From contig OZ017760.1 of assembly GCA_963969365.1 (NCBI GenBank), forward strand, positions 2,232,001-2,296,000: a stretch of DNA of 64,000 bases. Reading direction: 5' to 3'. Made by a program: the position numbers and the translations under genes. Positions 1-64,000 of the stretch are shown piece after piece (position 1 is the stretch's first letter; every line of letters starts with the position of its first letter). The notes under the pieces are model-generated. The model was not told where the DNA came from. It ran no database searches and was given only the letters and a program-made list of their open reading frames with translations. The DNA is from Asterochloris sp. CNOR1 (taxonomy: Eukaryota; Chlorophyta; Trebouxiophyceae; Trebouxiales; Trebouxiaceae).

Positions 1-1250
1 GTTTGAGGAAAAGGCCAACCCAGCAGCATACGCCTTTGGGGACGGGGAAGTGGAGGACAACTTTGAGATCAGCAAGTTGACTGAGGAGGAGCTGGCGGAG
101 ACGGAGCAGGCTGAGGCAGCGCAGGTGCGCTGCTGGCTCTTGCGCATTGGTCATTGGGTCAGGGTCAGTGTCATTGTCAGAGCTAAAGCACCCATGTTGA
201 AGCCAGCAGGGTGTGCACAGCGTCTTTTGGTTTGGCCAATGGGTCCATCCTCCGCTTCAGCAATTGCTCCAGTGCCCGCTTTGGCAGAGGAGGCCTCGCC
301 AGTCCCAGTGCCGAGCCTGTTGGCCAGCCTGCAATGCACTGCATGTGCTTGTCACACTTGCATGAGTCATGCAGGCGGAGGCAAAACCTGAGGTTGCCGT
401 TGCAGGTGAGGCCCCCAATGCAGTGCATGTGCCCGAAAGTCTGGCATGTGTCCTGCAGGCCAAGGCAGAAGCTGAGGCGGAAGATGCCAAGACTGCAGTG
501 GATGGAGGCGATGAGGCCACTGCAGGCAGCACGGGAGCCATGGAGCAGCAGCGGGATGGCACCGGCAAAGGTGCAGGGCAGGTAGCACAGGGTGAGCTGC
601 CTGCCGACACTGTTTCAGCTGCCCACTGTGGTTGATGCATGTGCTGTGAAGGCTGACTGCTGAGCAGTGATGGGATGGCTGCCAAAGCTGCAGGGCTTGC
701 CGATCATGTAGACATGACGCTGCTGACACAGATGTTGCATGCACTTGCTCAGCATTGTTGTAGTGGAGCTGCAAATGTAGCAAGCCTGTCATGCAGTCAC
801 TAACCGGTCGCGGACAGCTCTCTGAGCAGCAGGCCACCCTGCACACACAGTCACAGCCAGTACACAATGCCTTTTGTTGCTGCAGATCTGGAGGCTGCCA
901 CTCAGGAGGCGGACGCCTCAGAGTCAGCTGGTGCCCAACAAGCGGAGGCCCAGACTGAGCAGCCGACCTTGCCCAAGCGGCGGACACGGAGAAAACCCAC
1001 AGCAGCTGCTGCCTCTAGCCAGCAAGCAGAGGCAGACGAGGGACAGACTCCAGCGGCACCAGCGCCCAAGCGACAGACACGTAGGAAGGCTGCATCAGCT
1101 GAAACAGCGCCTGGCGGCCAGGCAGATGCTCCAACGCCTTCTAGACGACAAACACGTAGAAAGGCGACTTCACAAAAGGCTGATGCTGGGGAAGCCCCAG
1201 AGCGGTCACGCAGGAAGGCCGCAACAGACAGAAGCCCCACAGAGACATAG
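1..1250 (+). CDS. 3' end of a gene for a protein with basic TRRKA repeats
   Basis: Three exons can be joined: 2-124, 459-570 and 886-1250, with matching phases (0, then 1), stop at 1248-1250. They give the last 199 residues; the start lies left of the window. The first part is acidic (ISKLTEEELAETEQ). The last exon is rich in Ala, Glu, Gln and Thr and holds a repeated basic motif: KRRTRRKP, KRQTRRKA, RRQTRRKA and RSRRKA, spaced roughly 25-30 residues apart. Short basic clusters of this kind can bind nucleic acid or serve in nuclear targeting, but no catalytic domain is visible. A short intronic stretch at 367-430 (AEAKPEVAVA) looks like an echo of the second exon start and is skipped because its phase does not fit. 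I do not recognise the family. Confidence 0.7.
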
Positions 1251-1974
1251 TAGTTGAATGTATGCAGACATGATACAAACCTCATGTTATAACAGGCAAA
1301 TGGTGCTTTTACATGTTGCCTGGCTGACTTGACTGAACGGCAAGTCACAACTCTCGAAAAAGATCAGTGTCCCACTGAGAAGTGTGCCTGGCATGTGGAA
1401 TTCAGATGGCCCTTCGCATGCACCAGTCCTGCAAGTGCTTGCACTCACATCCCTCTGTTATGTCTGGTCACTGCCTTGCAGCTGTGCTTGTGCAGGTCCA
1501 CAGGGCAAGCTGGCCCTCTCAGACTGTCCTTGCTGAGCTGAGGGGTCATGCATGCCTGCCTGCAACATTGCAGCTCCCACTCCGGGGTATGTTGATGCCA
1601 CAGCCTCTGACTGAGGATGAGCTGGCCAGCAGGACACCAAGAGTTTCTGGCAGCACAGTGCTGGACACCTCTGATGCGGCTTCCTGGATGAAACAGGTTC
1701 TTGCAAACATGCCCACTCTCAGTCTTTTACAACATGCTCATCACCTCCGGTGTCACTTGCAGTTGCCCGGATCTGGCAATCTGCATGGAAGTCAACCTAC
1801 ACAGCCTGGAAGCAAAGCACATCTCTTCACGTCAACCTCTTCTGTGGATTATAATGCCCTTGAAACGCACAGCAATGCACCGTTCATGGGGCCCCAGTTG
1901 GAAAGCTTCCAGCGGGCGACAGCAGGCTTCATGGTTGGAGCTTGCCTTCTTTCAGCTGTGACCACTGGAAGAGC
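1251..1974. other. Intergenic region upstream of the M28 peptidase gene
   Basis: This holds the 3' flank of the first gene and the promoter side of the next. I see no clear TATA box. An open frame at 1382-1978 (+, 198 codons) crosses it, but its composition is uneven and no domain is visible, so it is not called a gene. Confidence 0.5.
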
Positions 1975-4900
1975 ATGAGGCCGGCTGATAACATGCGTCA
2001 GAGGAAAGTCATAGCGAATGGCCAAGCAGTGGAGAGCACAGCATTTGCTTCAGCCCACAATGGGCACACCCAAGCATCGAGATGCAGGAGCCTGACTCCC
2101 AGTGGCAAATTTCTGTCTGCCATCCTGGTCACTCTGTTTTACACTGCAGCAGTGAGTTTAGCATGCCTGACAGACTCACATCACCTGCTGCCTTGCCCTA
2201 TCTGCCTGATCGAAGGTGCAGCCCTTTATGAGGCAAGCCACCAGCAGCGTTCGTGACAAAAGCCAGCCTGATGCACCTGGCTGTGCCATCTTTGTGGTGC
2301 CTCCAGGTTAGGGCACTCCTGGCTCTCACCTTAGTCACCTGGCCCCGCAGAGTCCTGGAGGCTCTCACAGAGGCTCTCACATGGCGCCTCTGCAGCCAGT
2401 CAGGCCCCCTGCTGCAGGTACTGATCAGCGTCAGATCATTCTACAGGACACCTCACCCGCTGGGCAAAGATGCAGCCCCGGAGCTGTTCTCTGAGGGCAG
2501 GGCCAGGGAGCATGTCAACATGCTCTCAGAGGTCATTGGGCACCGCACGGTGGGTGACTTCCACAGGCTGCAGCATGCAGCTGTTGCCTGGCGCCCTCCT
2601 TCCTGGGTTATGCAGCACCAGACACGATCGGCTTTCTTGCAAAGGTCAGGCTGCAGCATGCCGACGCTGCCTGCCTGGTGATGTGCAGGGGTTGGCCACT
2701 GGTTTTCGTGCCCCTGCTGCCGTGGCACGATTGCACTGGATGCAAATGTGCTTTGGCCAGGCTGCAGCATGTAGGCGGCTGTCTGCCTGGCAGGGCACTT
2801 GTTCAGGTGCTTGGCAAGTCGCCCCCAGCTACAGAGGCAGAGAATGCAGGTGCTAGCAGCAATAGTGTGGGGCATAGGCAAGAGCCACGCCTGATACATC
2901 TAGTGACTGGTAACAGTGCTTCTGTAATTGTGCAGCAACACAGTCAATCTGGGCATTTCTGGTGGCACACCAGACTGCTGCAACGGGCTTTTCATGCAGC
3001 ACATAGTGTCTGAAGCTGCAGAGCAGAAGGTAGATAGGAACCCACTTGGGTCCCTGCCCTGAGCCTGGCGCCGTAGAGGGGCATGTCAAACAAGTGGGTT
3101 CAATGCGGGCCTCAGTGGATGACCTGCTGCTGCGTTTATCTGGACAGATGTGCTGCTGCAGGTTGGGTCACCTGGCGTCATTCAAGCCCGTGATTACCTT
3201 CTGGAGCAGGTCACCCATGTGCAGAAGCTGGCTCAGGAAAGGGAGGACCTGGAGACAGAGGTAAGAAGGCAGGGCAAAGGCCTTGCATGTGCTGTTACCA
3301 ACAGCTCCTCAGGCTCGATGCTGAGCAGTGAAAGCTGGCTCAGGATGGCTGAGACATAGGCAAATGTGCCACTTAGGCGGTTCAGCTGCTCATTGCTGAG
3401 CACCACCAGCTGTCCCAGGAAGGGCCGCAAGCAGGCGGGAGATGAGAATCATGGGTGCAATGCATGGCTGAGAGCATGATGGGCTTTGCTAGGCACTGCC
3501 ATGCAGCCAGTTGGCAGAGGCGAGGCAGCCTTCTTCCTCCCAGGCAGTTGGCTGTGTTACTGCCTGTCTGGATGCTGTCTTTGCTGGCCAAGCTGCAGTA
3601 GCTAGCTGCCTCTGCCTCCCCAGACACACCTCCTGACCGTGCACAGCAGCTGACCTCAGCCCCGCATTCCTGTGGCGGCAGTATCCCACCACATCGCTCT
3701 GGACACCATAGCTGTGGCGACAGGTGCTGGCTGATGTTGCCCACCTTTGGCCCATGTCTTGTTTTGTGCCTGCAGTATCTGCCTGCGGAGGCTCATTGAG
3801 CAGGTCACATGGGCAGTGAGCCAAATGCTACCCCCCTCTGACTCAAAGCCTACAAGAACCGGCTCATCCCGCTTGCCTAGTGTGTGCCTGCAGGTTCTGG
3901 TTGAGCAGGTCACAGGGGCAGTGGACATGACATTCTTCCACGCCCCCCTCATCAACGCCTATCAGAACCTCAGCAACGTCATGCTGCGCGTGCAGCCCCG
4001 GGGGTGGCAGTCAGCTGTAAACGATACGCTGCTGCTGAACGCCCACTACGACAGCCCCATTGGGTCCACAGGTGGGCAGCCACAGTTGTGGGGGTCCTGC
4101 AGTTGGACAAACAAACCACAATTCCACATCAGCACCTGATAGACTGGTTGGAGCACGGCAACTATCCACACACATCAGCGCCTGCTAGAGTGGGCTGGGG
4201 CCGTCACGCATGTGGTCCCATAGGTTTCGGTCAACCTGCAGGCGGCTGGATGTGGCCAACCCAACCTCCGCTCAAACCCCCGCACCAGGATCAGCAGGTT
4301 TGCATATCAGCTGCACTGGGCGCCTCTCAAGCTTGTACAGCGAACAAACTAAAAAAGAAGAGAAAAAAACCCTTCCGCACAGGGGACTGCATCTCTGTTG
4401 CACCCACCGGCTCTGTGGCCGCCTGCGGATTTTCCAGACTGAGAGTGAAGCGGCCTACCTGCACAGGCTGAGCTGATTGTGGGTGTCCAGTGCATGTGGC
4501 AGGTGTGCAGAGTGCATGTGACACGTGTCCAGTGCATGTGGCTGCTTGCAGGTGTCCAGTGCATGTGGCAGATGTCCAGTGCATGTGGCAGATGTCCAGT
4601 TCACGAGGCAGGTGTCCAGTGCACGAGGCAGGTGTCCAGTGCATGTGGCTGTTTGCAGGTGTCCAGTGCATGTGGCAGGTGTCAGTGCACGAGGCGGATT
4701 GCAGGTGTCCAGTGCATGTGGCAGGTGTCCAGTGCATGTGACACATGTCCAGTGCATGTGGCAGGTGTCCAGTGCATGTGACACTTGTCCAGTGCATGTG
4801 GCGGTTTGCAGGTGTCCAGTGCATGTAGCAGGTGTCCAGTGCGTGTGGCTGATTGCCTGCAGTACATGTGGCATCTCTCTGCTGAGGCCCACTGTTGCCT

Positions 4901-7900
4901 GCCGGCATGGCAGACTGTTGTTTCTGACCAGGTTGCCCCTCTGCTGCCTTCAGGGGCTTGAAGGACTGCATCTGTCAACTGCACATGCCAAATCTCTGAC
5001 TCACTCTGCTGCTTCGCCTGCAGGTGCGTCAGATTGCGCCTCCTGCGTGGCGACGCTGCTTGAGCTGGCGAGGGTAGTCGTCCAGAACCCCAGCGTGCAG
5101 CTGTCTGGGCCCGTCATCTTTTTGCTGAATGGCGGGGAGGAGACCGCTATGCAGGCCTCACATGGGTTCATCAGCCAGGTGGGTTTGATTTGTTATGCAG
5201 TGCGTTCGGCCCTGCGGCATGGAGCGCAGCTGATCTAGATTGATGCTCCTAATGTTTGACTGCCGCTGGAACAAGCGTGGTCATCTAGCAGCCTGCCTGA
5301 CAACTGTTTGCTGGGCCCCCCAACTATGCGCAAACACAGGCGATCCTTTTTCCCAGAGCAGCCCCTAATGTCCTGTTGCATGCTGCTCTGCAGAGCGCCT
5401 GGGCTGGCAACGTAGGGGCCTTCATAAACCTGGAGGCCACAGGCTCAAGCGGCCCTGACCTCCTGTTCCAGCATGCCGGCAGCTGGACGACCAAGGAGTA
5501 CGCGCGAGTGGTCCCCATCCCCCACGGCTCCGTCTTTCTGCAGGTAGGTCCCTGCAGAGCTGATGGCGGCTGCGGTCTGCTGTATTCCCAGCTGTGGTGA
5601 GGGTTAGGTTGCAAGCTTGCTGGGCAACGTGAGTTGTGAAGCCGCCACGTGGCATGCAGCGGCTGGCACCTCTGTGGAACGTGAGTGAGCTGGAGTCAAG
5701 CTTGCTGGGCGGCCTGTCTTGTGAAGCCTGCCACAAGTTCCCGTGGCATGCAGCAGCTACTGCCTTTATGGAGCGTGAGTGAGCTGGGCCAGTCCAATGT
5801 GGCACTCATGACCACCATGCAAGAGTGAGTGCAGTTGCCATGTGGGATCTGTGTGGGGCAGGCGCAGTGCAGCTGGCAGCTCTCTATGGTCATCATCATC
5901 ATCACTGCCCTGCAGGATCTGTTTGAGATGGGCCTGGTGCCCTCTGACACAGACTACAGGATGTTCAGCTACGCCACGCTGGGCAAGTGGCCAGGCATCG
6001 ATGTCGCATTCATCCTGGACAGCGCAACCTATCACACCAGCCGCGACAAGCTGCACCGGCTGCAGCAGGGGGCTTGCCAGGTGCGACACAGGCAGGCAGT
6101 CGAGGTGCAGTGCGCCCACGCACCACGGCAGAGGCTCTGGGCAGCACTGCTCAGCTGCTCTGAGAAGCACCCTCCTGCAGTTTACATGCACGCATGCCAC
6201 ATTGCATTACATGCTGAAGGGGGCTTGCCGAAGGGTGCAATGCACAGGCGGATGCTCAGGTGCTTGCATGCAAGTTCCACAGCCGGTGGGTCCATATCCA
6301 GCACAGGCTACGTGCATCATGCTCATCTGCCTGAAACAGTACCTTCAGACGGCGCCAGTACACAGCCAGCCAGCCGTTTGGACAGCGTGCTCAGCAACAG
6401 GAGAGATGGCGCTGGCCAGTCTGGCTGCAGCGCCTGCAGAAGGGGGCTGTGCCGGCCCGGCAGGAGGCATAGGCAGCATGTTTAGCTGCAGTGGGACAAT
6501 CTGCGCAATGTGCCAGCACCACAGATGCCTGCACAGCAACCCCTGCACAGAATTGCCTGCTAGACTCAGCGCAGCTCTCAGACAGTCTTGGAGCACAGGT
6601 ATTGCACCCAAGGCTGATCCTGGTGCTCTTGTTGTCATTCTAGATGCCCACTTCATTGCTGTAGCTGATGGAAGAGGACCTGCAGCGCACCACGGTATCT
6701 GTCTCTGGCCCTGGCTTTGGTGCCTTGTTGCCCTGTGTCACTACAGCCAATGGCAGACAAAGTGGCGGCATGCCATGTTGGCCTGCCAATCCTGCAGAAT
6801 GTCAGCAACACTGCTACCAGTGCATCTTGCATGTGGTTACTGTAGCTTCCTGGAAGAGGGCTTGCAGTGCACAAGGATGCCACCCAACCTGCTTGGTCTT
6901 CCTCCATGTGGCCTTCATAAGATCAAAACCCTTTAGCTGCTGCAGCTGACGTGAGGGATTTTTACTATTGTTCTCCCCTGCCAGCTAGCTCTCTCAGAGC
7001 CACAACACCTGCTGCTCACCAGGCAGTGCCTGTGGATGCTGTGGCTGATGGGGTAGAACATGCAGTGCATCATGGTGGCCGGCTGTCTTCCGTCAAACCC
7101 GCTTCCATCTGAGTAAATGCTGGTTGCTGCTGCAGCTCATGGGCGAGAACACGCAGCGTGCCATGGTGGCTTTCAGTGCTCATCTGGCCGAAGAGCAGGC
7201 CAAGACTGATGCCCAGCGCGCTGCAGCGTACGCGAAAATCAAGGCCGTTTACTTTGATGTTTTGGGGATCTTCATGGTGGGTCAGGGCCATATCACTTGC
7301 CCAAAGTTTCGTCCCTTTTTGCACATCTCGGAGCTCCCCATGCTGAGACTGTGACGTACAATTGCTGACCTGAGGGTGAGCAGGGAGTCGGCAAGGTCAG
7401 TGCTGTGGAGCTTTGAACAGGACTGCAAGCTGGTCATAGCTTACTATCTTTTGCTTGGGCATCTGCCAGTCTGTCCCTCCTTGGCAGATGTCAGAGCAGA
7501 AGAACGTGAGCTAGGAAGCCGCTGCCTGTCATGGCAGACAGTCAGGCACCAACAGCAAAGCAAGTCAACAGGTGTGCTTGATGTCTCCTTGACCAGTGTC
7601 TCTGCAGGTGACCTACCCTTTGTGGGTCGGCAGCCTGCTGCACTGCGTGCCCCTCCTGCTCATCTTGGCCAGCCTGGCCGCTAAGGCACGCCAGCAGAGC
7701 CGCGCGCCAGGGCCCCTATACTTCAGTAGCGCTCTGCTGGACGGCAAGGGACCACCTGCTGGTGGGCAGCCGCCGCTGCCAGCAGCCCTGCCCCTGCTCC
7801 GGGAGGTGAGGCGCCAGCAGCGCCTTCTGTGCATGCAAGCAGGGGCTACAGGAAGCCTCCACAGGTGCGCCTGTGCTGATCATCTGGATGCAGCACCTTC

Positions 7901-10900
7901 TGTGTCATGCATGCAGGGGATAAAGGAAGCCTTCAGAGGCGCCGGCCTGGCAGTTCTGGCGTTTCTGTCTGGTTGCGGGCTGCCTGCCCTGCTGGGCATC
8001 TTGCGGACGCTCATCTCAGGTGGGCAGTCCTCACACTGCAGCCTGCCCGGCAATTTGCAATGCACCATCATCTCCTGCGCCGTGGCTGCGCCCAAATGCC
8101 CATAATGTGCTGCCAGTGCTGCACAAGCGACTGAAGCACAAACACTTTCAAGCTGTGCCCTGCAAATGCCTTCCCCAGACGTTTGCCCTTGCTGTAAGAT
8201 CTGCCTGTGGCAGTCATAGGCGGTGCCCACGATGGGGCGCCAAGACTGACACGCTGAAGGCACAGGGGCGCAGAAACTGACACAAAGGGGCGCAGAGACT
8301 GACACGCTGCCCTACATCTGAACCTAAACCCCTGTGCCATGCTGCAGGCAAGCCCATGATCTGGTTTGGCCACCCCGCACTGGCCTACACCATTTATGTT
8401 CCACCGGCCCTCATCGGGCTCAGTCTGCCCTACGTTGTGACAGCGAGAGCAGCTGGCGAGCTGGGCGCGGGAGGCAGCCCCCGGTCCCCCGCCACCCGCC
8501 TTGCGCGGCGGCAGACCTCCCGCCTCCGTGTCAGCACTCAGGTAACCCAGCTGCCTGGGCGAGGCCGCCTGTGCTGGCTGGTGTTGCGCATTTGTTGCAC
8601 AAGCCTGTGGTCACCCGCCACCTGCCTTGCACAGTGACTCACCTCCCGCTTTGAGTCAGATTTCAGGTGGGGAGGCCAGCGCACATGTGGGCAATTCCAG
8701 CATCCAGTGCATGGCTGCGTCACTCAGCCTCGCTGCTTCAGCACTGGCTGCTGGGCGGGGTGACTTTGCTAGTCTGTCTGTCTTCTGCTGCAGCCTGCTG
8801 GGCCCCTTGAGGCTTTGTGCAGGCACATTTTGCACAGTGTCAGTGGAATGTAGCATGTCTGGTCATCCAAAATGTCAAAATCCAAATGTTGTCTGTTGTA
8901 CAAGTTGGGCTGGGGGCTTCAACAGCACTGCCAGCACTTCATGCAGCTGGAAGGCACTTTGTTTGCACCTACAGTCATGTGCTGCCTGCGGCTCCCTGAT
9001 CCTTTCAGGTCTGGCAGAGCTTCCTGCCCTTTTGACATATCAGGCAAGAACGACCACACGAGCCCTGCACAACTGATGGCCACCATGTCCACTTCAGGTC
9101 TTGGGGCACGCTCTTGTGATGGCGCTGCTGTCAGCGGCAATGGCTGCGATCAACGCTGGGGGCGCATACATGTTTGCTGCGTGGTCAGTCAGCAGCCTCG
9201 TGGCCTCCCACCTTGTGGACAAGGTAAGCTGGCTTGCAGCGTGTAACGACACATTCAGCAGGCTCTTGCAACATGACTGCGGCGCCATACTTAAGGGCCT
9301 CCATGCTTAAGGGCCCTGACAGGGGCTGCAATAGTGAGCTGGGAGCCCTGATCGGGGCTGCAGTTGCGGCATGGAACCCCTGACAGTTGTGCCCTGACAA
9401 CTTCTGCTGGGCACCACCTGCTGGCCATGGTTCCCCTTGTGCTGTCAAGCCCTAGCCAATTTGCTTAGACTGCCACATAGAGTCATGCGGTTCGTGACAA
9501 GTTGCTTTGCCAGGCAGGTAGCCTGCTGTGGCGCCGTCCCTGCAGAGGGCCTCCCTCTGCAGTCCCGACTGTCACCCTGCCATGTGCTGCAGACGGAAAG
9601 CTCTGGGCACCTGCTCTGGAGCTGCTTGGGGGCCACGGTGCCTGCTCTGCTGCTGAGCTTGCCCCTGTCCATTATGCTGACCATCCACTGCCTGGGCAAG
9701 TCCAGCATGTCGGGCCACGCTCCCTACTTCTTTGCCCCCCTGGTGAGCTGCAGTACTTTGTACAGAACGAGACTGCACATACCTGCAATGTCTGTGGGGC
9801 AGCAGGTCGGGCAATGCACCTGACTTCTTTGCCCCACTGGTGAGCTGCATTTGTTGCGTCACCAGCTCGTCTACTCTGTGGAGTGTTGCAGCAGACACTT
9901 TGACCTTTTGCATGAGGCAACTGCTGGCCTCCTGTTCCTGCCATGGTAACAGACAGTCGGCATCCAGAACCAGTGCAATTGTTGACCAGGGTCGGGCCAA
10001 CTGTTCCTAAATCTGCTGCTCTTGACTGCTGTCCAAAGGCTGTTGGCAAGCATCATCAGGCCAATGAGGCCCTGACTCTACTGCTGTGACAGGTGCCTCT
10101 AAAGCAACCAAGCGTGCCCGCCCCACACAACACCTGTGCTGCAGATGCTGGGCACTGTGTTTGGGTGTTGTCACCGGCTGCCATAAAGCTCCCTGGAAAT
10201 TGTACTAGACGTGATTGTGGCTCCTGGAAACAGCCTTGCCCCTCTGAATTGTGCCGCAGATGCTGGACACAGTGTTTGGGTGTGATCACCTGCTGCCATG
10301 AGCCTTGCAGTCATCCTGAACCTCAAAGCTCTACTGCAGGTGCTGGACACGGTGTCCGGCGTCATCATCGGCGCATTCATGTTCCTCAACCTAGCCTCAG
10401 CCGCCCCAGTCATCAGCCACTGCTTCCGACGACAGGCCCCTGTCGCACTGGTGGCTCTGGCGCTGGTGGCAATTGGGGCAGCTGCCGGCGGGTCCCTCAT
10501 GCCGCGAGGGTACACTGAGGAGATGCCCAAGCGCCTGGTGATCCAGCACCACCATCAGCAGCAGGGCAATGGGCCAGTGTCCACCTCCAAGTGGGTTCAG
10601 GCTGCATGCCTGGTCAAGGGGTTGCAGTCTGTGCAGTGGTGCCAGCATTAACAGGGATGCAACTGTGTCTACACCTGGAAGTGGGTGCTGGCTACATGCA
10701 AAGTGGGCTGTGTGGGGCCACCAGCAGCAACAGGACTGGGCCTGTGTCCACCTTCAAGAGGGTTATGGTTGCATGAGCCCTGTGCATGTGCCTTGTGTTT
10801 GCCCATTGATCATGTGAGGCCACCAGGCAGCAGCAGGGAGTTGTCCATTTGAGTTGACTGGGTGCCTGCGGAGTGACCAGTGTCAATGTCAGTAATGCAG

Positions 10901-12473: not shown

Positions 12474-13330
12474 GTCTGCCGTGCGCGGAGCAATCGCCTG
12501 ATTGCCCGATTTCATGATATCTGTGTCAAGTTGCTTTCAGTTCGCTCCCCAGTAAAGGATTGTCCAGTGAATTACAGAAGGGAAGAGGTGGAAAGAAAAC
12601 TACACATGCAGAAGCTTCATGCCACACGCTAAAGTGTGCTGCTTGAGAGCGCTCATGGCCTGGCAGCACATTCATGGCACCATGCAGAGTGAAAGGGTAT
12701 GCAGAGAATGCTTGTTGTGCTGATGCTGTCACAAGGCCTGTCCACTCATTGTGGACAACTCATATCTGAGAATGGTGGGCACAAAACAAAATCCAACCTG
12801 GGACGCCAGCGCGAGGGGGGTTGTCACAGCGGATTCGCTTGATCAGTGATGACACTATGCTGGGGCTGAACTGGGGCATCAAATGATTGAGAGCAAGAAG
12901 GGCTGCAGCGGGCCTGCGCTCCACCAGGGGCAGGTAGGTGACTCTTGCAGTGTGTTGTTTCATTGCACATGCTGCTGCGCGGCCAGCGCCGCGTTCCTTC
13001 TTAGATGAGCTGCTGGGGCGGGATGCAGGCCAGAGGCATTTAGCTATTGTCTGGTGCCATGTATGTGGAGTTCAGCCCCTAGAGTGCTCGGGCCTTTCAG
13101 GGTGTGCCCGCGATGTCAAGCCAGAGGAGGAGCCACTTGCAGAGAAGGTTGAGACAGAGGAGCCAGCGTTGGGCGTGACGGGGCTGCTGGGTGACCTGGC
13201 CGGCGGCCTGCAGTGCGGTCAGCTCTTTGTGAGTTTTGGTGCAGCAGAAAGACTGGCCAAGGGCCTTGCAGTGCAGGCAACAGAGTATGCACGTTGCAGC
13301 AGAAAGTGTGGCGCTGAGCAGCCAGACCCC
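12474..13330. other. Region between the M28 and endosulfine-type genes; no gene called
   Basis: After the M28 stop codon I find no recognisable coding exon. A plus-strand frame at 12938-13459 has a short stretch that could pass as protein (DVKPEEEPLAEKVETEEPAL near 13112-13171). Its 3' part overlaps the inverted echo at 13331-13452, which argues against it being a gene as a whole. The 3' flank of the minus-strand endosulfine gene probably lies here as well. Confidence 0.4.
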
Positions 13331-13452
13331 GAGTTCAGCACCTGCAGCATGCATTTGAGGTTCAGAATGACTGCAAGCTGCATGCAGCTTGCAGCCAGTG
13401 GTCACACCCAGACACTGTGTCCAGCACCTGCAGCACAGTTTGAAGTGGCATG
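13331..13452 (-). repeat. Inverted dispersed copy of an M28-gene exon junction
   Basis: Read on the minus strand, this contains gtgctggacacagtgtctgg, then ttgcagtcattctgaacctc, then gcaggtgctgaactcggggt. The M28 gene at about 10253-10372 has the same elements in the same order. By eye the match is around 80 percent over about 115 bases. It lies about 3 kb away and is inverted, so it is not simple tandem slippage. Confidence 0.8.
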
Positions 13453-13972
13453 GCTGTGAGCAAGGGCCACCGTCACGCTTAGCACAATTTTCCAGGCAGC
13501 CTCATGGCAGAGATCTGCTGAGCAGCCCCTGGTGAAGGAAGCAACAGCCTGCAGAGCCGAGTGTGCGGAAATGCTGCCCAATGCTGCTTTGGTGGCAGGG
13601 AGGTTCTGCACCCGGTAATGCAGGCAGCCAGCCAACTCGCTGAGAGACATCTACAGGGTGCAAACGCCGGTACTGTGGCAAACTCACACCGTGTCACCAC
13701 ATGGTCCAGGGCAAACCTGCAACAATCACCAAGATCAGGAGCCCTGAGTTTCCAAGGCGTGGCGTGGCCCACTCAGGGTCATACCTGAGAAACAGGCTGT
13801 GCAGCAAACAAGCTGCAGCAGCTGCCTGCTGCCACCCCCAACAGTATGGCCAGGCAGGAGTGAGCGGACCAGCTCAGCACTCAGGCGCTGGATACAGGAC
13901 GTGACAAGTGGAGACTTGGGGCGGCACCAGCACATCCTTTGGGCGGCGGCCCCCATGACGATGGCCACTTGC

Positions 13973-14172: not shown

Positions 14173-14210
14173 CTGCACACAGACAGTGAGTGTGTCGCTG
14201 GCGTGCCAGG

Positions 14211-15452: not shown

Positions 15453-18400
15453 ATGCCGGCAGAACCGGCGGTGGGCTCTGTCTGGGAGCTTTTGGAAGAA
15501 ACAGACGCCACGGATGCTGAGAGACTGGAGGTCTGACAGGCTGGCAGCGATTTTTGTCCTGGCATCGGCGTGCATGCCGCTCTCAGTAGTATTCGATCCG
15601 TGGCTGGCACATATGGATGAGAGGATAGCCCCATCAGAAGAGGAGGCCTGAGGGTTGACAACTGGCATGCATTGCGCCTGCAGGCAGCTCTAAGGGCCAT
15701 GTGCAACTGTGTTCCCCCAAAACTGGCCAAACACCTGTTGGCCACGCAATCCCTGGAGGATCTCTTGCTGGTCAGGTGAGGGGTTCAGCAGATGGGGGGC
15801 TGCCCTCAAAACATGGTGCACTGGGATGAATCACCACGTCCAGAGCCTGACACAGCAAAACATTCTGTACGCTCAGCCTGGCCCCTGTTGAAAATGAGAC
15901 CACGAAATCCATGTGCCGGCTCGCATGGTGCCCCTCACTGCTCTCAGTCTTTACTGTCAAGCTGTCACAAGTGTGAGCTGTCACAAGTGTGAGCTGGCGG
16001 TGTGCTCCGCAGCGTGTTGTCGCTCTGCCCATTTCGGTGCCCTAGTTGACATGCCATTACATACACATGGATTGCCACTACATACACATGAGCTCACTGC
16101 AGCAGCTGATCATCGTGTGCGCTCTGCTGCTTGCCGGTCTTCAAACAGGGCGCGGCTTGCCGCTGAGCTACAGCTGATGCGGCATGCTGCTAGTCATGGG
16201 GGGAATGTGGTGACTGCTGCTGCTGCAGGCAGTACTTGGGCCCACCTGCTGTGGCCACAGCCATGCTGCAGTTTGAGCTCAATCATGTGCGCAAGCGTCA
16301 CAACCTGCGAGCTCAGTACTCACGGGAGGGGATTTTGACAGCAGGCAAGCAGCCGCCAGGCTCAGCAGCGCACTCATGCAGCTGCACACATGAGGGGCAG
16401 CTGCTGACAGTTAGCCAGCCTGGCTGGTCTGCAGTGCACTGCGTCATCTGAGCACCTGCCTCTGGTCTCTCTTGTGGGTTCACAGTCTGGGTGCAGATGC
16501 CCTCACTTGGCACAGCCTCCATCTTGCAGGCTCCCCCTGCAGCAGCCACCAGTCCTCCCGCCGGGAGAGCCAGGACAGTAGTCTTGTCCAGGGCAGCCAG
16601 GGGAGTCAGCATGCAGCCTCGGATGGGGGGGAGGCCAGCCTGCGCCAGCTCCTGGGGGAGCGACTGGCAGGGACATCGCTGCCAGGCAAGGCAGTCTGGT
16701 GACCCCTGTGGGCGCCAGTGGACGGTCAGGCTGTCAGTGCTGGCACCAGCCCTCCTGCCCGAATCGCGCATGCGTGGCCTGATCTGCTGGGGGCGCAACA
16801 GGCTGGGACGTCGCTGCCGGGCAAGGCAGTCGCTGCTGGAGAATAGTCAAGCTGGCAGTGCCAGCCTTTCTGCCAACAGCAGGCATGTGTGATCCTCTGT
16901 CAGGGCATCAACTTGCTGTGACAGCCACCACAAGTAAATGGAAAGCCAGGTAAGACGGTGCCTGCCAGCGTACAGCTGTGCTACAGGAGTATGAACGCTA
17001 CCCGGCCACGCATGTCCCTGCATGAGAGGCAGTACAGCAGCTGCTGAGTATTAGCTCCCTCGGCCCCATATCTGCAGGCGCTGTGGTGGCAGAGGTCTCC
17101 CTGGCTAGGTCATGCATACATGTCCACTGCTGCTCCCAACAGCCTGTGCCCACTAGATGCTTTTGCAGCTGAGCAAGCGCTTGTGGCCCTTGTCTGTGGA
17201 CTGGTCTGCCCCCAAGTAGAGGCAGCCATGTCGCACACCTCACAAGAGGCTCTCCCAGAACCCCTGCGCTATCCCTGCAGGTAGCAGGGGCTCCCGGCGC
17301 GTGGTCACAGCTGACGCTGTGCCCACATCGGGCCGCAAGGGGGGCTGGGCAGTGGCTCAGTACAGCTCTGCTGGGCACCTGCTGAGCGCCCCCCGCAGCG
17401 TGATGCTCATGCAGCGCTTTGAGGGGATGCGGGGCCAGCGCTCCAGCGAGCAGAGCTTGCTGCAGCAGCAGCAGGCGGAGGAAGCTGGGGGAGTGGGCGG
17501 AGCAGCGGGGCCCGAGGCGAGCATGATGTCAGCTGACGGCATCCTACTGCCAGAGCAGGCAAGAGCTGTGCAGGTGCACATTGCTGCACTGCACTGCCGA
17601 CCAAGCACAATCATCCACAGCACATGATGTGGTGGGGGGTCCTGGCATCAGCAGCGCTGACAGCCACCACACAAGAGACTCAATGCAGCACATGCTTCCA
17701 GGTCCAGGCACAGCACTGCGCACACCGCCTGTCGACGTGCACAGTGTCGGCTACATTGAGCTGCGGGAGAGGTGTGTCCCTGGTGCAACCTTGTGCAGCA
17801 GAGTCCGGCTGCACACCGGCAGCTCTCTGCCTGAGTTCCTGTGCCGTTGGCCTGCTGAGTCTGAGAGGAGGTGCACCGGATGTATGTGCCCCTTGTGCAT
17901 CCTTGTGTGGCTGAGTACGGCTGCACATGCACATGCAACATCATTTCATTACGTGCTGCTGGACTGCCAAGGCTGGCATCATTCGCACTGGCATCTGTGG
18001 CCACCACTCCCATGACACGTCAGGGCTAGCGCCTCTTTTGAGGTGCAGCCTATCTGAGGCCTGCGGCGTCTTCTGACTGTGCATGCTGCATCAAACTCAC
18101 CCTGGATGCCTCACACACACTGTGCCAGCAAGGCTACCTGCAGTTTGGCAGAAATGAGGTGATCAGCCTGCATTCGGGGCCTGTTCCCTGTCCAGCAGAG
18201 GCCATCACAGGCCCGCCAACCTGTCACCTGCAGGGCGCTCCCATCAGTCATGGCGCTATGTCAAAGCTCCCTCGCCTGCTGCAGGAGGAAGGGCTGCTGG
18301 AGGGCAAGGGCATCCCCCACGTGTACTCTGCGCCAGAGCTACAGGACGCCAGCGCCCCTGCTGTGTTGGAGGAGGGGTTGGCTGTGGAGCACAGGTCTGA

Positions 18401-51300: not shown

Positions 51301-54044
51301 TGAGCGGCCCGCTGGTCCTGCCTCTTGTCAGGTCCTGCCTACAGAAGAGCTGCTGCAAGCAAACACCTGTATGCTGTGTGTTGCTGCTGCTGACTCGCTG
51401 TGTGTGGGGTCCATGCAGGGACGCCTTTGGCATTGAGAAATCCTACCGCATGCCCTGCCCAGTGCTGATCCACGACGACTGGGCTGTGGCAGCAACGCCT
51501 TACCATCTTCACCCCAAGTGAGCACTGCTGCCGAGCTGCATTGCAGCCTGCGCTGGGCATCGCCATGTATAGTTGAATAACATCAATGCCGCATCCCTTG
51601 TGTCTGTTGACAGCCGTGTTGCTGAAGTTTTGTGGTCCTTAGCTGGGTCATCTCTGCTCCTGCAAGTGCGTCTTCTGCTGCAGGGCTGTTGTGACGGGCC
51701 CCCTGACAGCAGAGGCACCCAGGCCGCTGCCAGCAGACATGGAGGCGTTTGTGCACTCTGCAGGGGAGGCTGGCTTTGTGTTTGCCAGCCTGGGGACCAC
51801 AGGCCTTGCAGGTGAGCAGTGCCTGCGCCTCGCCACGTTCTGAGCAGCTCATGTCTGTCTTGCATGCTGGTGGCACACGCGGCAGAAGGTTGCCGCATTG
51901 CATTGCGTTCACACCGCTCCCCGCATGAGAGCGTTTTGATGCACAGCAGCTTCCGAGGCTTCTGCTGGGGCCACCTGCTCCCAGACATCTTCCCCAGTAG
52001 CTGGCTGCTCCGATGCAACAGTGCAGCAATGGACTGCACCTTCACCAGTGCCTGGCCTTTGCCGCAGAGGTCAAAGGCTGCATCTCCCCAGTGCCTGGCC
52101 TGCTTACTGCAGAGGTCCACAATCGGTGCATTTTCCCAGTGCCTGACTTGTGTGCTGGAACAGGTGCATGGGCTGCATCTCACAGTGTGTCTGGCCTGTC
52201 TGCTGCAGAGGTGCATGAGCTGAAGGCCATCCGTGATGCCCTGGCAGCCATTGCGCCCATCAAAGCCATCTGGAAGCTGCACCCCACCGACCTCATATCG
52301 CTGGAGGAGCGCAACGTCAGCCTGGACATCCCCGCCAACGTCATGGTCACGCACTTTGCACCCCAGAACAGCCTGCTGGGGCACCCCAAGATGCGGGCGT
52401 TCCTTACCCAGGGCGGCACCAACAGCTTCCTGGAGGCAAGCTGCAGCCTGCATGTCGCCTCAGCCACTGCGTTTGCGATTTCTACGGCTCTGGCTGCTAC
52501 CTGGCGACCTCTGTAGTTGCTGTTGCTCTGGCGCTGCTGTTCAAGTAGCCACCTCTGTGCTAGCTGCCCCTCTCGCGCTGCTTTGCTCTTGTGGATTCTT
52601 CCACAAAGGGTGTTGGCCTGAACGCTCTGGTTCCTTCAGCAGAAAAATTAGCCAGGCGCTCTTCAAAGCCCAGCCCCTCCTGCCATGTCTACAGGCTGCC
52701 TGGCATGGCAAGCCCATTGTGGGAATGCCACTCATGATTGAGCAGCCAGACAACCTGGCACGAGCAGAGGAGCAGGTGTGCTGGCTGGACTGCAGCTCCC
52801 TCCCATATCAGCTGCATGGCCAATCAGACTTTTGATGTTCCCAATGCGACAATCTGCTCTGCATTCAGATGTGCGCCTCTGCTCGGCAACCAGGTGCACA
52901 TAGCTGCCCAGCCGCTCCAGATCTGCTGCACTGCTGGCCAGGCAGCTGCACGTAATCCCCACTCCTCAGACACAAAGCTGCACAGCTGCCCAGTCGCTCC
53001 AGAATGGGGCCACATCTGCTTGGCAAGCAGCTTCATGGACAAAGCTGCATGCCTGAAGCTGTTTGGCTACTTCAGAGCTGTGCATGTGGCCACCTCTCCT
53101 TGCTAGGCAGCTGCACTGATAAAGCTGCACACCTTGAGCTGCACTGCTGCTCAGCAGCGTCATGGCTGCCGCGCATCATCATTTTCATATGTCTGCGCAG
53201 GGCTGGGGTCTGCGGGTGGACTTTAGGCAGCTTGCCAAGGAGCCTCATCTGGTGCGCGAGGCCCTAGCCAGGGTACTGAGCGAGCCCAGCTTTGCCAGCG
53301 CCGCCCAGCAAAAGTCGGTGCTGATGCAGGCGCACAGCAGGTCCCCCCGCCAACGAACCGCAGGTGGGCGCAGCTCTGCTTCTGTCTGGGTGGTGGGTTG
53401 TGTGGGCGGCTACAACAGATCAGTTTCAGCATGTCGAGGTCGTTCCTTGCTTTCCAGTACCTGAGTCTGCTTGCTTGCTGAGCACGCCTTCCAGCAACCC
53501 TGGCTTTCGAGGTTGAAGCGTGGCTGTCTTTGTGCAGATGCACTGGAGCACGCTACATGGACTGGATGCCCACATCTACAGAGCTCCCCTAGGTCAGTCT
53601 GTCCTGGTGAAGCGGTGTGCACACTGCGAGGAGCGCCTTGTCTGCCCAAGCTCTCAAGCTGCATGACTGGGGCAGCCACCATCATGTCACCGGTACACAG
53701 TCGCAGCACTGTCTCACCACCAGATGGTGCCGCAGTTCCTGTTTATCCCTGCACCACCCCACCTTGGCCCAACCAGCACATGGCCCTGACAACAGAGTAC
53801 CCTTTCAGCAATGATGATTCCAGCCACAATCTGCTCAACCTGCAACACCAGTGTACCATCTGGGTGCAGGGACCAGCACTGGTTTACACGTGGCATGTGG
53901 GACCTGCACTTGACACTTGCTGGCATGGCATCTGTGGCAGCAGCAGCTATAAGTGTGATGAGCTATCAGAGTGCCCGCCTGCTGGCGATGTATCTACCTG
54001 CTTTATACCAGAAAGTGGTTGGTGTCCACATGAAGACAGCTTGA
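48379..54044 (+). CDS. UDP-glycosyltransferase, animal-type membrane form, copy 1
   Basis: Thirteen phase-consistent exons: 48379-48639, 49343-49518, 49825-49882, 50103-50207, 50634-50723, 51042-51136, 51419-51517, 51684-51811, 52209-52435, 52695-52775, 53201-53363, 53538-53592, 53870-54044; 570 residues. It transfers sugar from a UDP-sugar to small lipophilic acceptors. N-terminal signal peptide (FCAVLCLATLSVCTTAH), catalytic-His region ELASRGHHVK, acceptor half with DFQADLVMTDYPF and LIHDDWAVA, then the nucleotide-sugar signature FAPQNSLLGHP, FLTQGGTNSF, HGKPIVGMPLMIEQPDN. The usual THGG is TQGG here. A C-terminal helix (LAGMASVAAAAISVM) would anchor it in the ER with a short tail. Intron 9 (52436-52694) has a GC donor. 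The start at 48379 is chosen because it opens the signal peptide. Confidence 0.94.
52045..52208 (+). repeat. Three decayed copies of the UGT1 exon 9 acceptor ahead of the real one
   Basis: cagtgcctgg-type starts at 52045, 52089 and 52137 precede the true copy at about 52183 (spacing 44, 48 and 46 bp). Each has a pyrimidine-rich stretch, cag or its remnant, then aggt(c/g)ca and a gctgcat-type or ggtgcat-type end, as in the real ctgctgcag / aggtgcatgagctg. Confidence 0.9.
52900..53150 (+). repeat. Degenerate tandem repeats in UGT1 intron 10
   Basis: Repeated gcagctgca(c), aaagctgcac/aaagctgcatgcc and gctgcccag(c/t)cgctccaga modules at 52894-53145. Noncoding. Confidence 0.65.
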
Positions 54045-60463: not shown

Positions 60464-63456
60464 TTGACAGCTCTGGCAGCGTCGAGGCGGAAGAACCCCT
60501 TGGCCTCTGCCCGCGGCAGGCATCCCCGGCGCTGGGCGTCCCGCAGCATGAGCGCCTTGAGCTCCAGGTAGTGAGCAGGCAGCAGGCGGGCACTCGCGCA
60601 CAGCTCGCGCTCCTGCAGCAAAGCACTACAGAGATTCCAGGATCCCACACAGGCGTGCAGGGTGACATGACACTGTCTATGGCACCGGCGCATTCTCTTG
60701 CAGCAACATCTCAGTGATGCAGGCGTGAGGATTTTCAGGTGATCGCTTGTGACCTCCAGATACTGGGCAGGCAGCAGACGGGCAGTCGTGCACAGCTCGA
60801 GCTCATGCACCAGAACACCCCTAGAGGGGCACTGCTGTGTACATGTAGTCCAAGCAGGCAGGAGCACACGCCTGCAAACCCTCTGCCTTACCCTGCCGGT
60901 CAGCAGCGCTGCCCCTGGAAGGGTGCTGCTGTCCAACAAGAAAGAGAAAAGGGGTGTTGCGCATGCCTGACACGCTCCGCCTCACCCTGCCAATCAGTAG
61001 CTCCACCCCCGGAAGGGCGCTGATGTCCAGAGCGACCCCCCGGCGTGCCCGCCAGGCAGCCAGGGCAGGGGCCGTGCTCCGGTGCTCCGCAGGCCTGGCG
61101 GCCGGCCCACCTGCAGCTGCCGTGGCCCGGGAGAAGCTGCCGCTGGTGCGCAGCAGGTCGCGGGACCCCAGGCTTGGGGTGCCTGCCAGGGTGGCGGCCT
61201 GCAGGGTTTAAGACGGGGGACACCTCAAGTCAAGTGCCAGGCTATGCCAGATGCTTGTGCAAAGCAACGGGAGCCCAGCAAGAGGGCCAGCCTGCTCAGA
61301 AACACAGGCCTGAGGGTGTTGAGTTAAGTGCATGTCACATGTGCCAGGTTATACCACATATCTGCGCAGAACTGCCTGACCTCAGCAAGAGGGTCAGCCT
61401 GCTCGGCAACGCTAAACATCCTGGGGGTGTTTAATTTGTTGGCCCTCAAACATACCATGGCAGCACCACATACCTTCACAGAGCAGCCTGACCTTGGGTA
61501 GAGGGTCAGCCTGCTCAAAAACACCAGCTTGAGGGTACCAACATGATTGCACCGCTCACCTGTGCGAAGGCGCCGGAGCCCAGCGAGAGGCCTGTCTCCA
61601 GCGGTGCCCCTAGCCGCCGACGCTCCCCCTCGTGGTGCACCTCCGCCTCTGCCAATGTGCGCACGCCCGCACGGCGCACATGGCACAGCTCCTGCAAGAC
61701 AAGGAGAAGCCACCTTTCAGCCTGTGCACTTCACTGGACTGCACTGCGCCCAGCAAGCCCTCAGTCCAGAGTGGAGGCCAGCTGAAAGGCAGCCCACCTG
61801 TACGAACATGCATTTAGAGCTGTTGCGCAGCCCTCTCAACCTCTCAAGCCTGCACACTGCTGGGTTCACAAACTGAATCTGTCAAGTGCAGCTAAGGCCC
61901 TCATCGGTGCCCTGCACCTCTGGATTTTGCGTATCGCCAACCTCATACACTGGAGTCAGTCAGGCACAGCAGGGGCTGTGACCCTTGCTCTGCACTTTGC
62001 ATCCTCATCCATGCTGCTCAACATGTACCACGTGCAGCAGGTGCCCTTACTTGGATGCGCACCCTCATCCTGTGTTTGCACATTTGTCACAGCTCAGCTG
62101 CACACAAATCCAGTGCCAGCAAGAAGCTGGTTCACAAGGCACGCCTTCACCTGGCCAGGCCACATGCATGCACACACCCAGCCCTAAACCTCGTGCCTAC
62201 CTGAATGCATGCCCTCCAAGCCACATGCAGGCACATACCCAGCTTTGGACCTCATGCACACCTGAATGCGTGCCCTCAGCCTGTGCTCTGCCAGCAGCCC
62301 CTCCTCCAAGCGCTCCTGCTCTTCCTTCCCCTGATACTGAGCCAGAGCACGCAGGCGAGCCACCAGGAGCCTCTCTGCAGGGGTGCGCCTGCAACAGTGC
62401 GCGAAGAGCTGAGCCACAAAGGCGGCAACTGTTCAATTGGAGCCAGAAAGAGGTTATATACTCTTGAGTATGGGCCAGCAGGTTCTCCTCCAGGCCCTCT
62501 TGCTCGCAACCCCTTCCTGTTGGGCCAGCCTGCGCATGCAAGCCACCAGAATGCAGGTCTGGCAGACAGCTTGAGCAGCTGAGCCCCACCTTCTGTCCAG
62601 CAGCTGCTGCTGCTTGATGTTGGTCAGCCCGCGCTGGATGCAGAAGTCCCGCCGCCGCTCCCGCTCTGTCAGACGTGCGTTGTAGATGTCCATCAGCTTC
62701 ATTTTCTCTTCCATCTCCTCCTGCAGCAGGATCATATGACCATATATGCTGTGGTCGTGACACGATTGATGTCTCAACGTAGCCTTCATGATGGTGTGTT
62801 CAGGGTGGAGGTGACACTGCAGGATAGCTGCACTGTTGGAACGGCGGCTCTTGTAGTACTAGCATCTTACTGGCCCAGTGGAAACCATAAGCTAGGGCAC
62901 AATGACCGACCTTGGAGTCGTCCTCCTTGAACTCCATCTCTGCCACCAGCAGCTCAGCCTCGTTGTCATACTCTGGGTCAAACTCAGCCCGCTTGATGTG
63001 GAACCCGGTCAGCTGCTGAAGCTCTGAGGCAGCCTGCAGGGAGTGAACCTGGACTCAAACAACTTTCTGAGGCCAGTGTGGGAGCTGTGAGCGTGTGGCA
63101 AATTTAGCTGGTGAAGCAATCAAGGAAATCTGCCCGCCTGATATGAATCTCTTTGGGCCTGCAGCTCCGAGCGGCCTTCAGGGGAGCACTGCCTACCCCG
63201 TCCTGCCTCCTGTTACCCAGCCGTGCCTGTCTCAAGCAGAACATCAAAGCCCTCACCTTGACCTCAGGATCTTTACTCTGCTTGCCCTGCACCAGTTTGC
63301 CGCGACCGCTGGCGGCGGTAGTGGCATCTGCAGCCGTCGGCGCCAAGGGCGTGGCTGCAGAGGCCTCTGCCATGGTGTGTATGCGGAGAGCCCCCGCGGC
63401 CTCGTGGGGCAGCCCATTGTCAAGTGGCCCGGCTGGTGCCTTGCTAGAGACCTGAC
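60464..63456 (-). CDS. ADA2: Transcriptional adaptor ADA2, central and SWIRM part (partial)
   Basis: Subunit of the SAGA-type Gcn5 histone acetyltransferase complex in the nucleus. Seven phase-consistent exons: 63257-63456, 62911-63033, 62590-62720, 62262-62388, 61560-61691, 60986-61198, 60464-60612. Diagnostic text: EFDPEYDNEAELLVAEMEFK; LMDIYNARLTERERRRDF, then CIQRGL; RRTPAERLLVARLRALAQY; ELCHVRRAGVRTLAEAE; and the SWIRM start GVELLIGRERELCASARLLP, then AHYLELK. These match the ADA2 order after the SANT domain. The N-terminal ZZ zinc finger and SANT domain are not in the window, so the gene continues past the right edge. A long Ala/Gly/Ser insert (AGTPSLGSRDLL to WRARRG) precedes SWIRM. 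The terminal exon is not found. Confidence 0.93.
60740..60950 (-). repeat. Echoes of two ADA2 exon edges
   Basis: On the minus strand, about 60950-60880 reads STLPGAALLTGRVRQ against SALPGVELLIGRVRR at the end of exon 60986-61198. About 60815-60740 reads ELELCTTARLLPAQYLEV against ERELCASARLLPAHYLEL at the start of exon 60464-60612. Both copies lie in the intron between these exons. Confidence 0.88.
61273..61545 (+). repeat. Three-copy tandem repeat in an ADA2 intron
   Basis: agcaagagggccagcctgct (about 61276), agcaagagggtcagcctgct (61385) and gtagagggtcagcctgctca (61498), each followed by aacac- or aacgc- text and ctgagggtg or a similar end; spacing about 110-115 bp. Confidence 0.85.
62045..62262 (+). 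repeat. Echoes of an ADA2 exon end
   Basis: The true exon edge at 62260 reads acctgaatgcgtgccctcag. Copies: cttggatgcgcaccctcatc (about 62050) and acctgaatgcatgccctcca (62201), the latter followed by ccacatgcaggcacataccc. Confidence 0.75.
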
Positions 63457-63720
63457 CTGCAGCAGTTGTGAGAAATGTCACAGACAGCTGCTTGGGTGCT
63501 GGCGTGCTGTGAAGTTCACAAAGCCCTGCTGCCTCTTGTGGCAGGCACTGGTCATCCAGCAGCCCCGCATGTGGCTTAGAAGACGCTTGTTCAGCAGCAA
63601 CAGAGGATGGCAGGCGTAGACAGATGCAGGGGTGCTGGCTGAAAAGAATTCTGCAGTGCTGTGGCATCATAGAGCCCCTGCTGCCTCATAGGGCAGGCCA
63701 TTGTCTATGAATTGCCTAGA
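63380..63720 (-). repeat. Three related copies around an ADA2 exon
   Basis: On the minus strand three stretches read (L)DNGLPHEAAGALR (63381-63425, inside the called exon), LDDQCLPQEAAGLCE (about 63509-63560) and IDNGLPYEAAGAL followed by a stop (about 63660-63710). Only the first is kept as exon; the other two lie upstream of its acceptor. Confidence 0.8.
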
Positions 63721-64000
63721 TTGAGAATCTTGATTCCTCTTCCATATAGGCCATGGGGCAGCCCTGAGACATTGCCGCCTGGCAGCGCAAGGACAGTGTA
63801 GCTGCATCGGAGCTTGTGGGTGTGGAGCTGCAAGAGGTCAGCGGAGCAGCTGGCGGCACAGTGTCTGGGCACAGATATGGCAACTGCAGGGCCCCCCTCA
63901 AGCTTGAAGGCCACTCCAGGGAGGTCACAGTCACAAAAGGCAGGCTGGACACTTGCGGTGGGAGCCTCGCTGCGGCAATCACCAACCCCTGCAACAGCTT
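63457..64000. other. ADA2 intron and unresolved upstream sequence to the window edge
   Basis: Besides the two echoes at 63509-63710, a minus-strand frame (63705-63914, FKLEGGPAVAISV) is open, but it matches no part of ADA2 I can recognise. SANT and ZZ exons must lie further right. Confidence 0.4.

Follow-up and report, generated by a model that had tools for sequence, protein, structure and literature searches.

Do the introns of this alga carry worn copies of the exon edges beside them and, if so, what process placed them there? The question was raised by a stretch of 64,000 nt (the window; Asterochloris sp. CNOR1, OZ017760.1, positions 2,232,001-2,296,000, forward strand), for which a preliminary description had claimed that introns contain copies of adjoining exon edges, produced by recurrent local duplication across splice junctions. 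We analyzed 264 kb, consisting of the window and two further stretches of 100 kb, one on contig C1 and one on contig C5. Exon edges were taken from our own gene models, built without RNA, in which 155 of 610 predicted exons are weak. The ADA2 gene is absent from the final model, and its edges were therefore set by reading.

Exon-edge copies in adjoining introns

The 20 named copies, referred to here as echoes, were examined in search stretches that we set around the reported coordinates, using 400 swapped introns (from C1 and C5) and 400 dinucleotide shuffles per echo as controls. This analysis confirmed that the introns hold copies of their adjoining exon edges, with 17 of the 20 echoes scoring above all 400 swapped and all 400 shuffled controls (Table 1). 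Echoes 25749 (2/400 and 3/400 in the two controls), 37601 (2/400 and 1/400) and 52045 (2/400 and 0/400) were borderline. Across the 264 kb, an own-intron match (local-alignment score of at least 40) was identified at 36 of 693 exon edges, compared with about 0.5 of 693 in swapped introns, so that the excess over chance also held beyond the named cases; reverse complements gave 0 of 693. A recount yielded 36 of 692 edges; when edges were compared with introns of their gene that do not adjoin them, the count was 0 of 5306. Thus, about one splice junction in 20 in this alga-like genome keeps a worn exon-edge copy in its adjoining intron. The window was richer in echoes (13/148) than C1 (6/267) and C5 (17/278).

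Table 1. Echoes and other duplicated segments in the window (identities are matching/aligned positions; the last column gives counts for the swapped and shuffled controls)
Feature	Positions	Strand	Match	Controls
Echo of M28 exon start at 3894	3767..3850	+	63/89 identical to 3874-3959	0/400 (both)
Echo of acceptor edge at 7917, offset 73	7819..7873	+	score 67; counted full length	
Echo of donor edge at 8541	8602..8668	+	score 57	
Echo of donor edge at 9742	9800..9849	+	50 bp, 86% to 9703-9752	
First echo of M28 exon start at 10340	10134..10178	+	33/45	0/400
Second echo of M28 exon start at 10340	10241..10293	+	37/53	0/400
Echo of donor edge at 10590	10718..10775	+	score 71	
Inverted copy, 3 kb off, of block 10210-10375	13307..13477	-	128/172	
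Echo of donor edge at 16698	16784..16831	+	48 bp, 85%	
Duplicated exon end, intron and exon start, unit ~540 bp	21766..22857	+	427/559	
Echo of acceptor edge at 25928	25816..25853	+	32/38	0/400
Echo of acceptor edge at 28243	27993..28081	+	72/98	0/400
Two more echoes of edge at 28243, head to tail	28119..28215	+	38/43 and 47/51; 54-bp array	0/400
Echo of donor edge at 30515 (putative Yippee)	30154..30218	-	46/65	0/400
Second echo of donor edge at 30515 (putative Yippee)	30413..30481	-	50/72	0/400
Echo of donor edge at 32173, PALP family, TrpB-like gene	31956..32015	-	44/60	0/400
Echo of exon edge near 33894, PALP family, TrpB-like gene	34156..34192	-	32/37	0/400
Two echoes of UGT1 acceptor edge at 52208	52091..52175	+	24/29 and 29/37	0/400
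Echo of ADA2 exon edge 60549-60626 (by reading)	60740..60818	-	64/79	0/400
Echo of ADA2 exon edge 60959-61029 (by reading)	60864..60935	-	56/72	0/400
Echo of ADA2 sequence 63367-63442 (by reading)	63499..63577	-	53/80	0/400
Echo of ADA2 sequence 63352-63421 (by reading)	63636..63705	-	51/70	0/400

The Yippee label comes from the preliminary description only. The edge near 33894 is an acceptor by sequence reading, and the gene model places a start codon at 33891. The second echo of the M28 exon start at 10340 is 88% identical to the first over 50 bp. In the matching UGT2 intron no echo of the UGT1 type was seen (score 15.8), and most UGT1 and UGT2 exons are too diverged for intron turnover to be timed.

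That the matches arise from chance or composition, or from one dispersed repeat family, is very improbable. All that speaks for it is the three borderline cases and the finding that 3 of the 36 echoes have weak non-local matches of 20-22 bp in the 264 kb; the empty counts from non-adjacent introns and reverse complements speak against it. A single dispersed family, which the preliminary description had named as a result that would overturn its claim, left no sign in the 264 kb (0/5306 non-adjacent introns), and an introner or other dispersed intron family was rejected on the same 3 of 36 non-local matches and the swapped-intron rate of 0.5/693. A whole-genome search with three echo regions recovered only the query itself; this is weak evidence because the search was coarse and missed an adjacent exon copy that is 81% identical.

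We also examined local duplicate pairs in general; the pair, placement and coverage statistics exclude low-complexity stretches and two large arrays (4460-4900, 23900-24900). Direct local matches outnumbered inverted ones by 108 to 4 (two large arrays left out), and 179 local direct pairs were found at offsets of 15-699, compared with 10 at offsets of 6000-6684 (T at least 16, arrays left out), six of which are UGT1/UGT2 paralogues. The copies thus have the direct orientation and locality of tandem duplication. Echo-bearing introns were longer than others (median 324 bp, n = 35, versus 219.5 bp, n = 418; P = 0.0012), in keeping with the suggestion that the copies lengthen introns, but longer introns also give more room for echoes.

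Placement of duplicates around splice junctions

We consider it likely that the echoes are what remains, in decayed form, of general short-range direct duplication that affects introns as well as exon edges. Short direct duplications would arise at offsets of mostly 70-220 bp through break-repair or replication template-switch events, part of them perhaps head-to-tail and part spaced. When a duplication crosses a boundary, the cell would go on using a single splice site with its exon copy, and splicing would remove the surplus copy together with the intron, so that the event would be tolerated. Selection would nearly freeze the used exon copy while the surplus copy drifts; edge-crossing duplicates would therefore remain recognizable for longer than intron-only duplicates and stand out to a reader.

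Pairs without exon sequence occurred at the frequency expected from random placement (53 observed, 50.2 expected), and similar local direct duplications also lie wholly inside non-coding intron. Pairs with exon in one copy were somewhat in excess (60 versus 44.8), exon-exon pairs were depleted (12 versus 21.5), and intergenic pairs were fewer than expected (10 versus 18.5), so the duplication process may favor genes. Duplicate coverage was approximately 4.7% just inside the junction and dropped to 0 at exon depths greater than about 90 bp, and coverage at the junction was 1.58-fold that of the intron interior (95% CI 1.05-2.39). In simulations, a frozen exon copy raised detection 1.2-3.1 fold at a drift of 0.15-0.2 per copy, or about 1.3-fold when all simulated ages were summed with equal weight (ratios derived by us). 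The 1.58-fold edge excess lies within this effect, and thus no junction-targeted process is needed.

A copying process with a preference for splice junctions or for transcribed genes, such as R-loop- or splicing-linked repair, that plants exon edges into introns would account for the surplus of one-copy-exon pairs, the shortage of intergenic pairs and the coverage peak at the junction. We regard it as improbable, as the edge excess falls inside the frozen-copy range, non-exon pairs match random placement, and the few intergenic pairs may include some from unannotated genes. Of the duplication across junctions originally proposed, the recurrent, direct and gene-local character, often at exon edges, was upheld (36/692 versus 0/5306); a process specific to splice junctions was not, given the random level of non-exon pairs and the size of the edge excess.

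Spacing and age of the copies

Young full-length duplicates are nearly absent, which is odd. Among better-preserved pairs of all classes (at least 82% identical), only 4 of 36 reached at least 0.8 of full length, compared with 78-89% full length among simulated non-coding tandem pairs of at least 82% identity. Plain tandem duplication at a constant rate, our first explanation, is therefore rejected, and it was also weakened by the flanks of the copies. Flank similarity in 18 blocks at least 84% identical had a z of 0.52 ± 0.14, compared with 1.24 ± 0.17 for simulated old tandem copies and 0.12 ± 0.10 for simulated spaced copies. Seventeen of these 18 blocks cover only part of their offset; one of the 17, at window position 28119, lies in the 54-bp array, and in 4 of the 17 the z of one flank exceeds 2. 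By class, flank z was 0.70 ± 0.19 for one-copy-exon pairs, 0.33 ± 0.55 for intergenic pairs and 1.22 ± 0.21 for intron-only pairs. For the edge echoes themselves, the spacer test gave a weak result, with a mean z of 0.59 over the 31 of 36 echoes that could be scored; the flanks of echo 16784..16831 were unlike (z 0.36 and 0.62). It is also odd that many of the copies resemble short blocks placed at a distance of 70-220 bp more than head-to-tail repeats.

Short templated insertions, in which polymerase slip-back or template switching sets direct copies of 30-60 bp at a distance of 70-220 bp, are a possible origin, to which we give somewhat less than an even chance. Consistent with such insertions are the 17 partial blocks with little flank similarity on average, a C1 block at 95882 with 31 of 33 positions identical at an offset of 91 and mostly unlike flanks, and the flank z of one-copy-exon and intergenic pairs, which resembles the spaced simulations. 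In contrast, intron-only pairs keep a flank z above that of spaced copies and some pairs are full length (28165-28215; C5 minus-strand intron 73792-73939). Break-end template insertions use both orientations, unlike the 108 direct and 4 inverted matches found here.

Slightly less probable is that all the copies are plain tandem duplications dating from a burst long ago, with young ones missing because duplication then slackened and with the units broken up by large later indels. Among 46 non-coding pairs at offsets of 40-350, four were at least 90% identical, and none of these was full length: three measured 20-27 bp, and the fourth, at offset 203, measured 80 bp. Under even ages, simulated detection rates would make about a quarter to a third of the pairs young, so the shortfall favors a burst, as does the drift of silent exon sites; however, the best-preserved blocks have less flank similarity than simulated old tandem copies, and an old-only population would require far more duplications, since 5102 had to be simulated to obtain 80 accepted ones. 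It is rather unlikely that a gene-biased process set direct copies of 30-60 bp, some of them spanning splice junctions, about 70-220 bp off with the spacer unduplicated, that its activity fell recently in this lineage, and that introns consist to a good extent of fossil copies of their own sequence and of their exon edges. If the spaced form is true, the standard models of intron growth by tandem duplication lack a copying step. The shortage of young copies also raised the possibility of repeat-induced point mutation, which was rejected on the mutation spectrum (C>T and G>A at 68/633 sites versus A>G and T>C at 38/411).

Fate of the copies and relation to known duplications

The splice dinucleotide was kept in 12 of 18 donor and 8 of 13 acceptor echoes, approximately as drift would leave it. 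Mismatches fell on all three codon positions (96/522, 106/522 and 142/528, or 0.184, 0.203 and 0.269), and the echoes therefore show no conservation of coding sequence; as a class they lack the conservation that alternative or mutually exclusive exons would have. The third-position excess is as expected from a drifting echo together with silent change in the exon. The similarity is local, direct and confined to adjacent introns, with neutral-looking decay. Edge echoes are paired fossils, with one copy constrained by selection and the other drifting. Within single genes they can serve as a clock and reveal the neutral mutation spectrum, and they give a direct count of the local duplications that have made introns longer and added decoy splice sites.

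In the human genome, short direct local copies are described as the commonest class of insertion below 100 bp (PMC8355091). Small tandem duplications formed from double-strand breaks with 3' overhangs by Pol alpha-primase fill-in are likewise short, direct and local (PMC8355091), whereas the echoes are diverged copies of some age, in many cases with a length below their spacing. Human-chimpanzee insertions are also local duplications that later drift, and coding sequence and splice sites carry fewer indels than expected; those events are recent and between species, whereas the echoes are an old record in one genome (PMC2654908). In the potato RdRp gene, a tandem duplication crosses an intron-exon boundary and, like the echoes, brings a second splice site; that single case made a new intron, whereas here dozens of decayed copies lie within existing introns (Ma et al. 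2016, PMC4974935). Introner elements of Micromonas are likewise repeats within algal introns but form a dispersed family, unlike the gene-local echoes with 0/5306 non-adjacent-intron matches (PMC3488318, PMC9860276). Among the literature matches listed, from a search that subscription papers mostly fell outside, no description of the edge-echo pattern was found. Tandem duplication of intron-exon boundaries is known from single genes; what is new is the density and fossil character.

In line with general local duplication, a larger event, at 21766-22857, adds an exon (22202-22375, 174 bp) to the gene model, and the predicted protein shows the repeat. Identity was 67/70 and 72/93 in the exon parts and 288/359 in the intron. 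This 540-bp exon-intron-exon repeat fits a known system (cited in PMC4974935, PMC3488318 and PMC3443670), in contrast to the echoes, which are partial and non-coding. The suggested use of the copies as new exons or shifted splice sites found no support in the drift-like dinucleotides or the codon-position mismatches of the echoes; the new model exon comes from the larger duplication. Part of echo 9800..9849 was also taken as an exon (9806-9839) by the gene model. The block copied in inverted orientation at 13307..13477 comprises the second echo of the M28 exon start at 10340, the intron end and the exon edge.

Frequency and decay of exon-edge echoes

The genome comprises 56.4 Mb in 21 contigs with a GC content of 55-61%; the organism is, on our assumption and that of the preliminary description, a green alga. 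Introns were numerous, with CAG/GTGAG-like donors and CTGCAG/G-like acceptors. A simple, self-written gene finder of the semi-Markov type was seeded with 54 coding stretches chosen by hand, all from the window (positions 2232001-2296000 of contig C15), and was applied to the window and to 100 kb each of two other contigs, C1 and C5 (264 kb in total). From sequence alone, it predicted 74 genes with 536 introns; of the 610 exons, 155 weak ones were handled as non-coding. Window genes included an M28 peptidase, a PALP-family (TrpB-like) enzyme, DUF1989, UDPGT and ADA2. ADA2 was absent from the gene-finder predictions, the model placed a start codon at 33891 whereas the sequence reads as an acceptor, and in at least one place (9708/9806) the gene finder was itself deceived by an echo, a decayed copy of an exon edge inside the adjoining intron. 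No Pfam family was identified for the model of the gene previously named Yippee.

The observation made in the preliminary description is confirmed: of the 20 echoes named there, 17 scored above all controls and 3 were borderline. Independently of these, 36 of 693 well-supported exon edges in the 264 kb matched their own intron at a score of at least 40, compared with 0/693 for reverse complements and 0.5/693 for swapped introns. A second count gave 36/692 for own introns and 0/5306 for non-adjacent introns of the same genes. Echo-bearing edges were found in all three samples (window, 13/148; C1, 6/267; C5, 17/278) and at both edge types (donor, 22/353; acceptor, 14/340), and 35 of 453 introns carried at least one echo.

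The echoes seem to decay neutrally. At codon positions 1, 2 and 3, mismatches numbered 96/522, 106/522 and 142/528; silent exon changes would account for the excess at position 3. The splice dinucleotide was retained at 12/18 donors and 8/13 acceptors, near the prediction from approximately 80% identity. The substitution spectrum of the copies revealed no sign of repeat-induced mutation, and the offsets followed no multiple-of-three rule (remainders 0, 1 and 2: 14, 7 and 15).

Local duplication and the excess at exon edges

Exon-edge echoes are part of a wider phenomenon of local duplication. With two large arrays (4460-4900 and 23900-24900) omitted, 179 direct pairs were detected at 15-699 bp compared with 10 at a 6-kb offset, 6 of which were UGT1/UGT2 paralogues. 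Matches were predominantly direct (108 versus 4 inverted), and 55 of 166 chained pairs had an offset of 70-119 bp. When 135 pairs were classed by location and set against random placement, pairs without an exon were at expectation (53 observed, 50.2 expected), pairs with an exon in one copy were somewhat higher (60, 44.8), and fewer pairs than expected were exon-exon (12, 21.5) or intergenic (10, 18.5). Duplicate coverage was approximately 1.4-4.6% along introns, reached approximately 4.7% just inside donor and acceptor junctions alike, and fell to zero past approximately 90 bp into the exon; the junction-to-interior ratio was 1.58 (bootstrap interval 1.05-2.39).

An exon copy would be unable to change at most sites, and drift would then accumulate mainly in the other copy. 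In simulations of 60-150-bp units with a drift of 0.15-0.2 per copy, exon-intron pairs were detected 1.2-3.1 times as often as intron-only pairs; when drift was small both were detected equally, and with the simulated ages summed evenly the advantage was approximately 1.3 (ratios computed by us from the simulation output). The observed edge excess agrees with this simulated advantage, and the process proposed earlier, recurrent duplication across splice junctions, is not needed.

Tandem and possible spaced copies

When evenly aged tandem duplication was simulated, 78-89% of pairs at least 82% identical were full length, compared with 4/36 observed pairs, a set that includes exon classes where the simulation did not. 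Among non-coding pairs at offsets of 40-350, 4/46 were at least 90% identical and none of these four was full length. Outside the two arrays and a 540-bp unit, only 3 perfect direct repeats of at least 25 bp within 1 kb were present in 264 kb. Either young duplications have become rare in this genome's lineage, or many events gave rise directly to short, spaced copies. The flank-similarity score (z) was 1.22 ± 0.21 for intron-only pairs, below the 1.80 of tandem copies simulated at drift 0.2 and above the 0.53 of those at drift 0.25. Simulated spaced copies scored 0.09-0.74 at drift 0.05-0.2, and similar values were obtained for pairs with an exon in one copy (0.70 ± 0.19) as well as for those located between genes (0.33 ± 0.55). 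For 17 partial blocks at least 84% identical, z was 0.52 ± 0.14, intermediate between simulated old tandem (1.24 ± 0.17) and spaced copies (0.12 ± 0.10). The simulated indels were small-step, so that large later deletions could imitate spacing. A mixture of tandem and spaced events is considered most likely.

Among insertions shorter than 100 bp in the human genome, small tandem duplications are described as the commonest type (PMC8355091). Tandem duplication across an intron-exon boundary is known for one potato gene (PMC4974935), and intron gain by tandem duplication of coding segments is proposed in Drosophila (PMC2891723) and more broadly (PMC3443670). Human-chimpanzee indels with local copies are reported, and indels are fewer than expected in coding sequence and at splice sites (PMC2654908). 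Among the matches listed, in a search with most subscription journals outside its range, none described decayed echoes at several per cent of a genome's junctions. Three features merit comparative study: the echo density, the fact that young copies of full length are nearly absent, and the possibility that copies arose in spaced form.

Individual loci

Duplicated and repeated features in the window
Position	Feature	Detail
21766-22857	Duplicated unit of ~540 bp (exon end, intron, next exon start)	427/559 identical; ~50 residues repeated in predicted protein
13307-13477	Inverted copy of 10210-10375, a block already containing an echo	128/172 identical
52209-52436, 58198-58424	UGT paralogue exon pair	93% identical (212/228); third positions 65/75
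23935-24874	Array inside large gene: 77-bp units, then 43-44-bp units	~9.5 copies of 77-bp unit, 88% matches
4482-4849	Array of ~20-bp units in M28 intron	17 copies
14207-14489	80-bp direct repeat with inverted 38-bp copy in between (fold-back structure)	90%; 95%
28135-28242	Two additional acceptor copies upstream of model acceptor	54-bp period

The inverted copy at 13307-13477 indicates that not all events were direct and near. Some units of the array in the large gene were called exons by the gene finder. If used, the additional acceptors would extend the exon by 18 or 36 codons, in frame and free of stops, making them a candidate for alternative splicing. The ten remaining UGT exon pairs were approximately 52-85% identical, and the UGT intron pairs tested scored only at chance level. 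Similarity of the 93% pair stopped at, or within approximately 13 bp of, the exon edges, a pattern that suggests exon-limited gene conversion.
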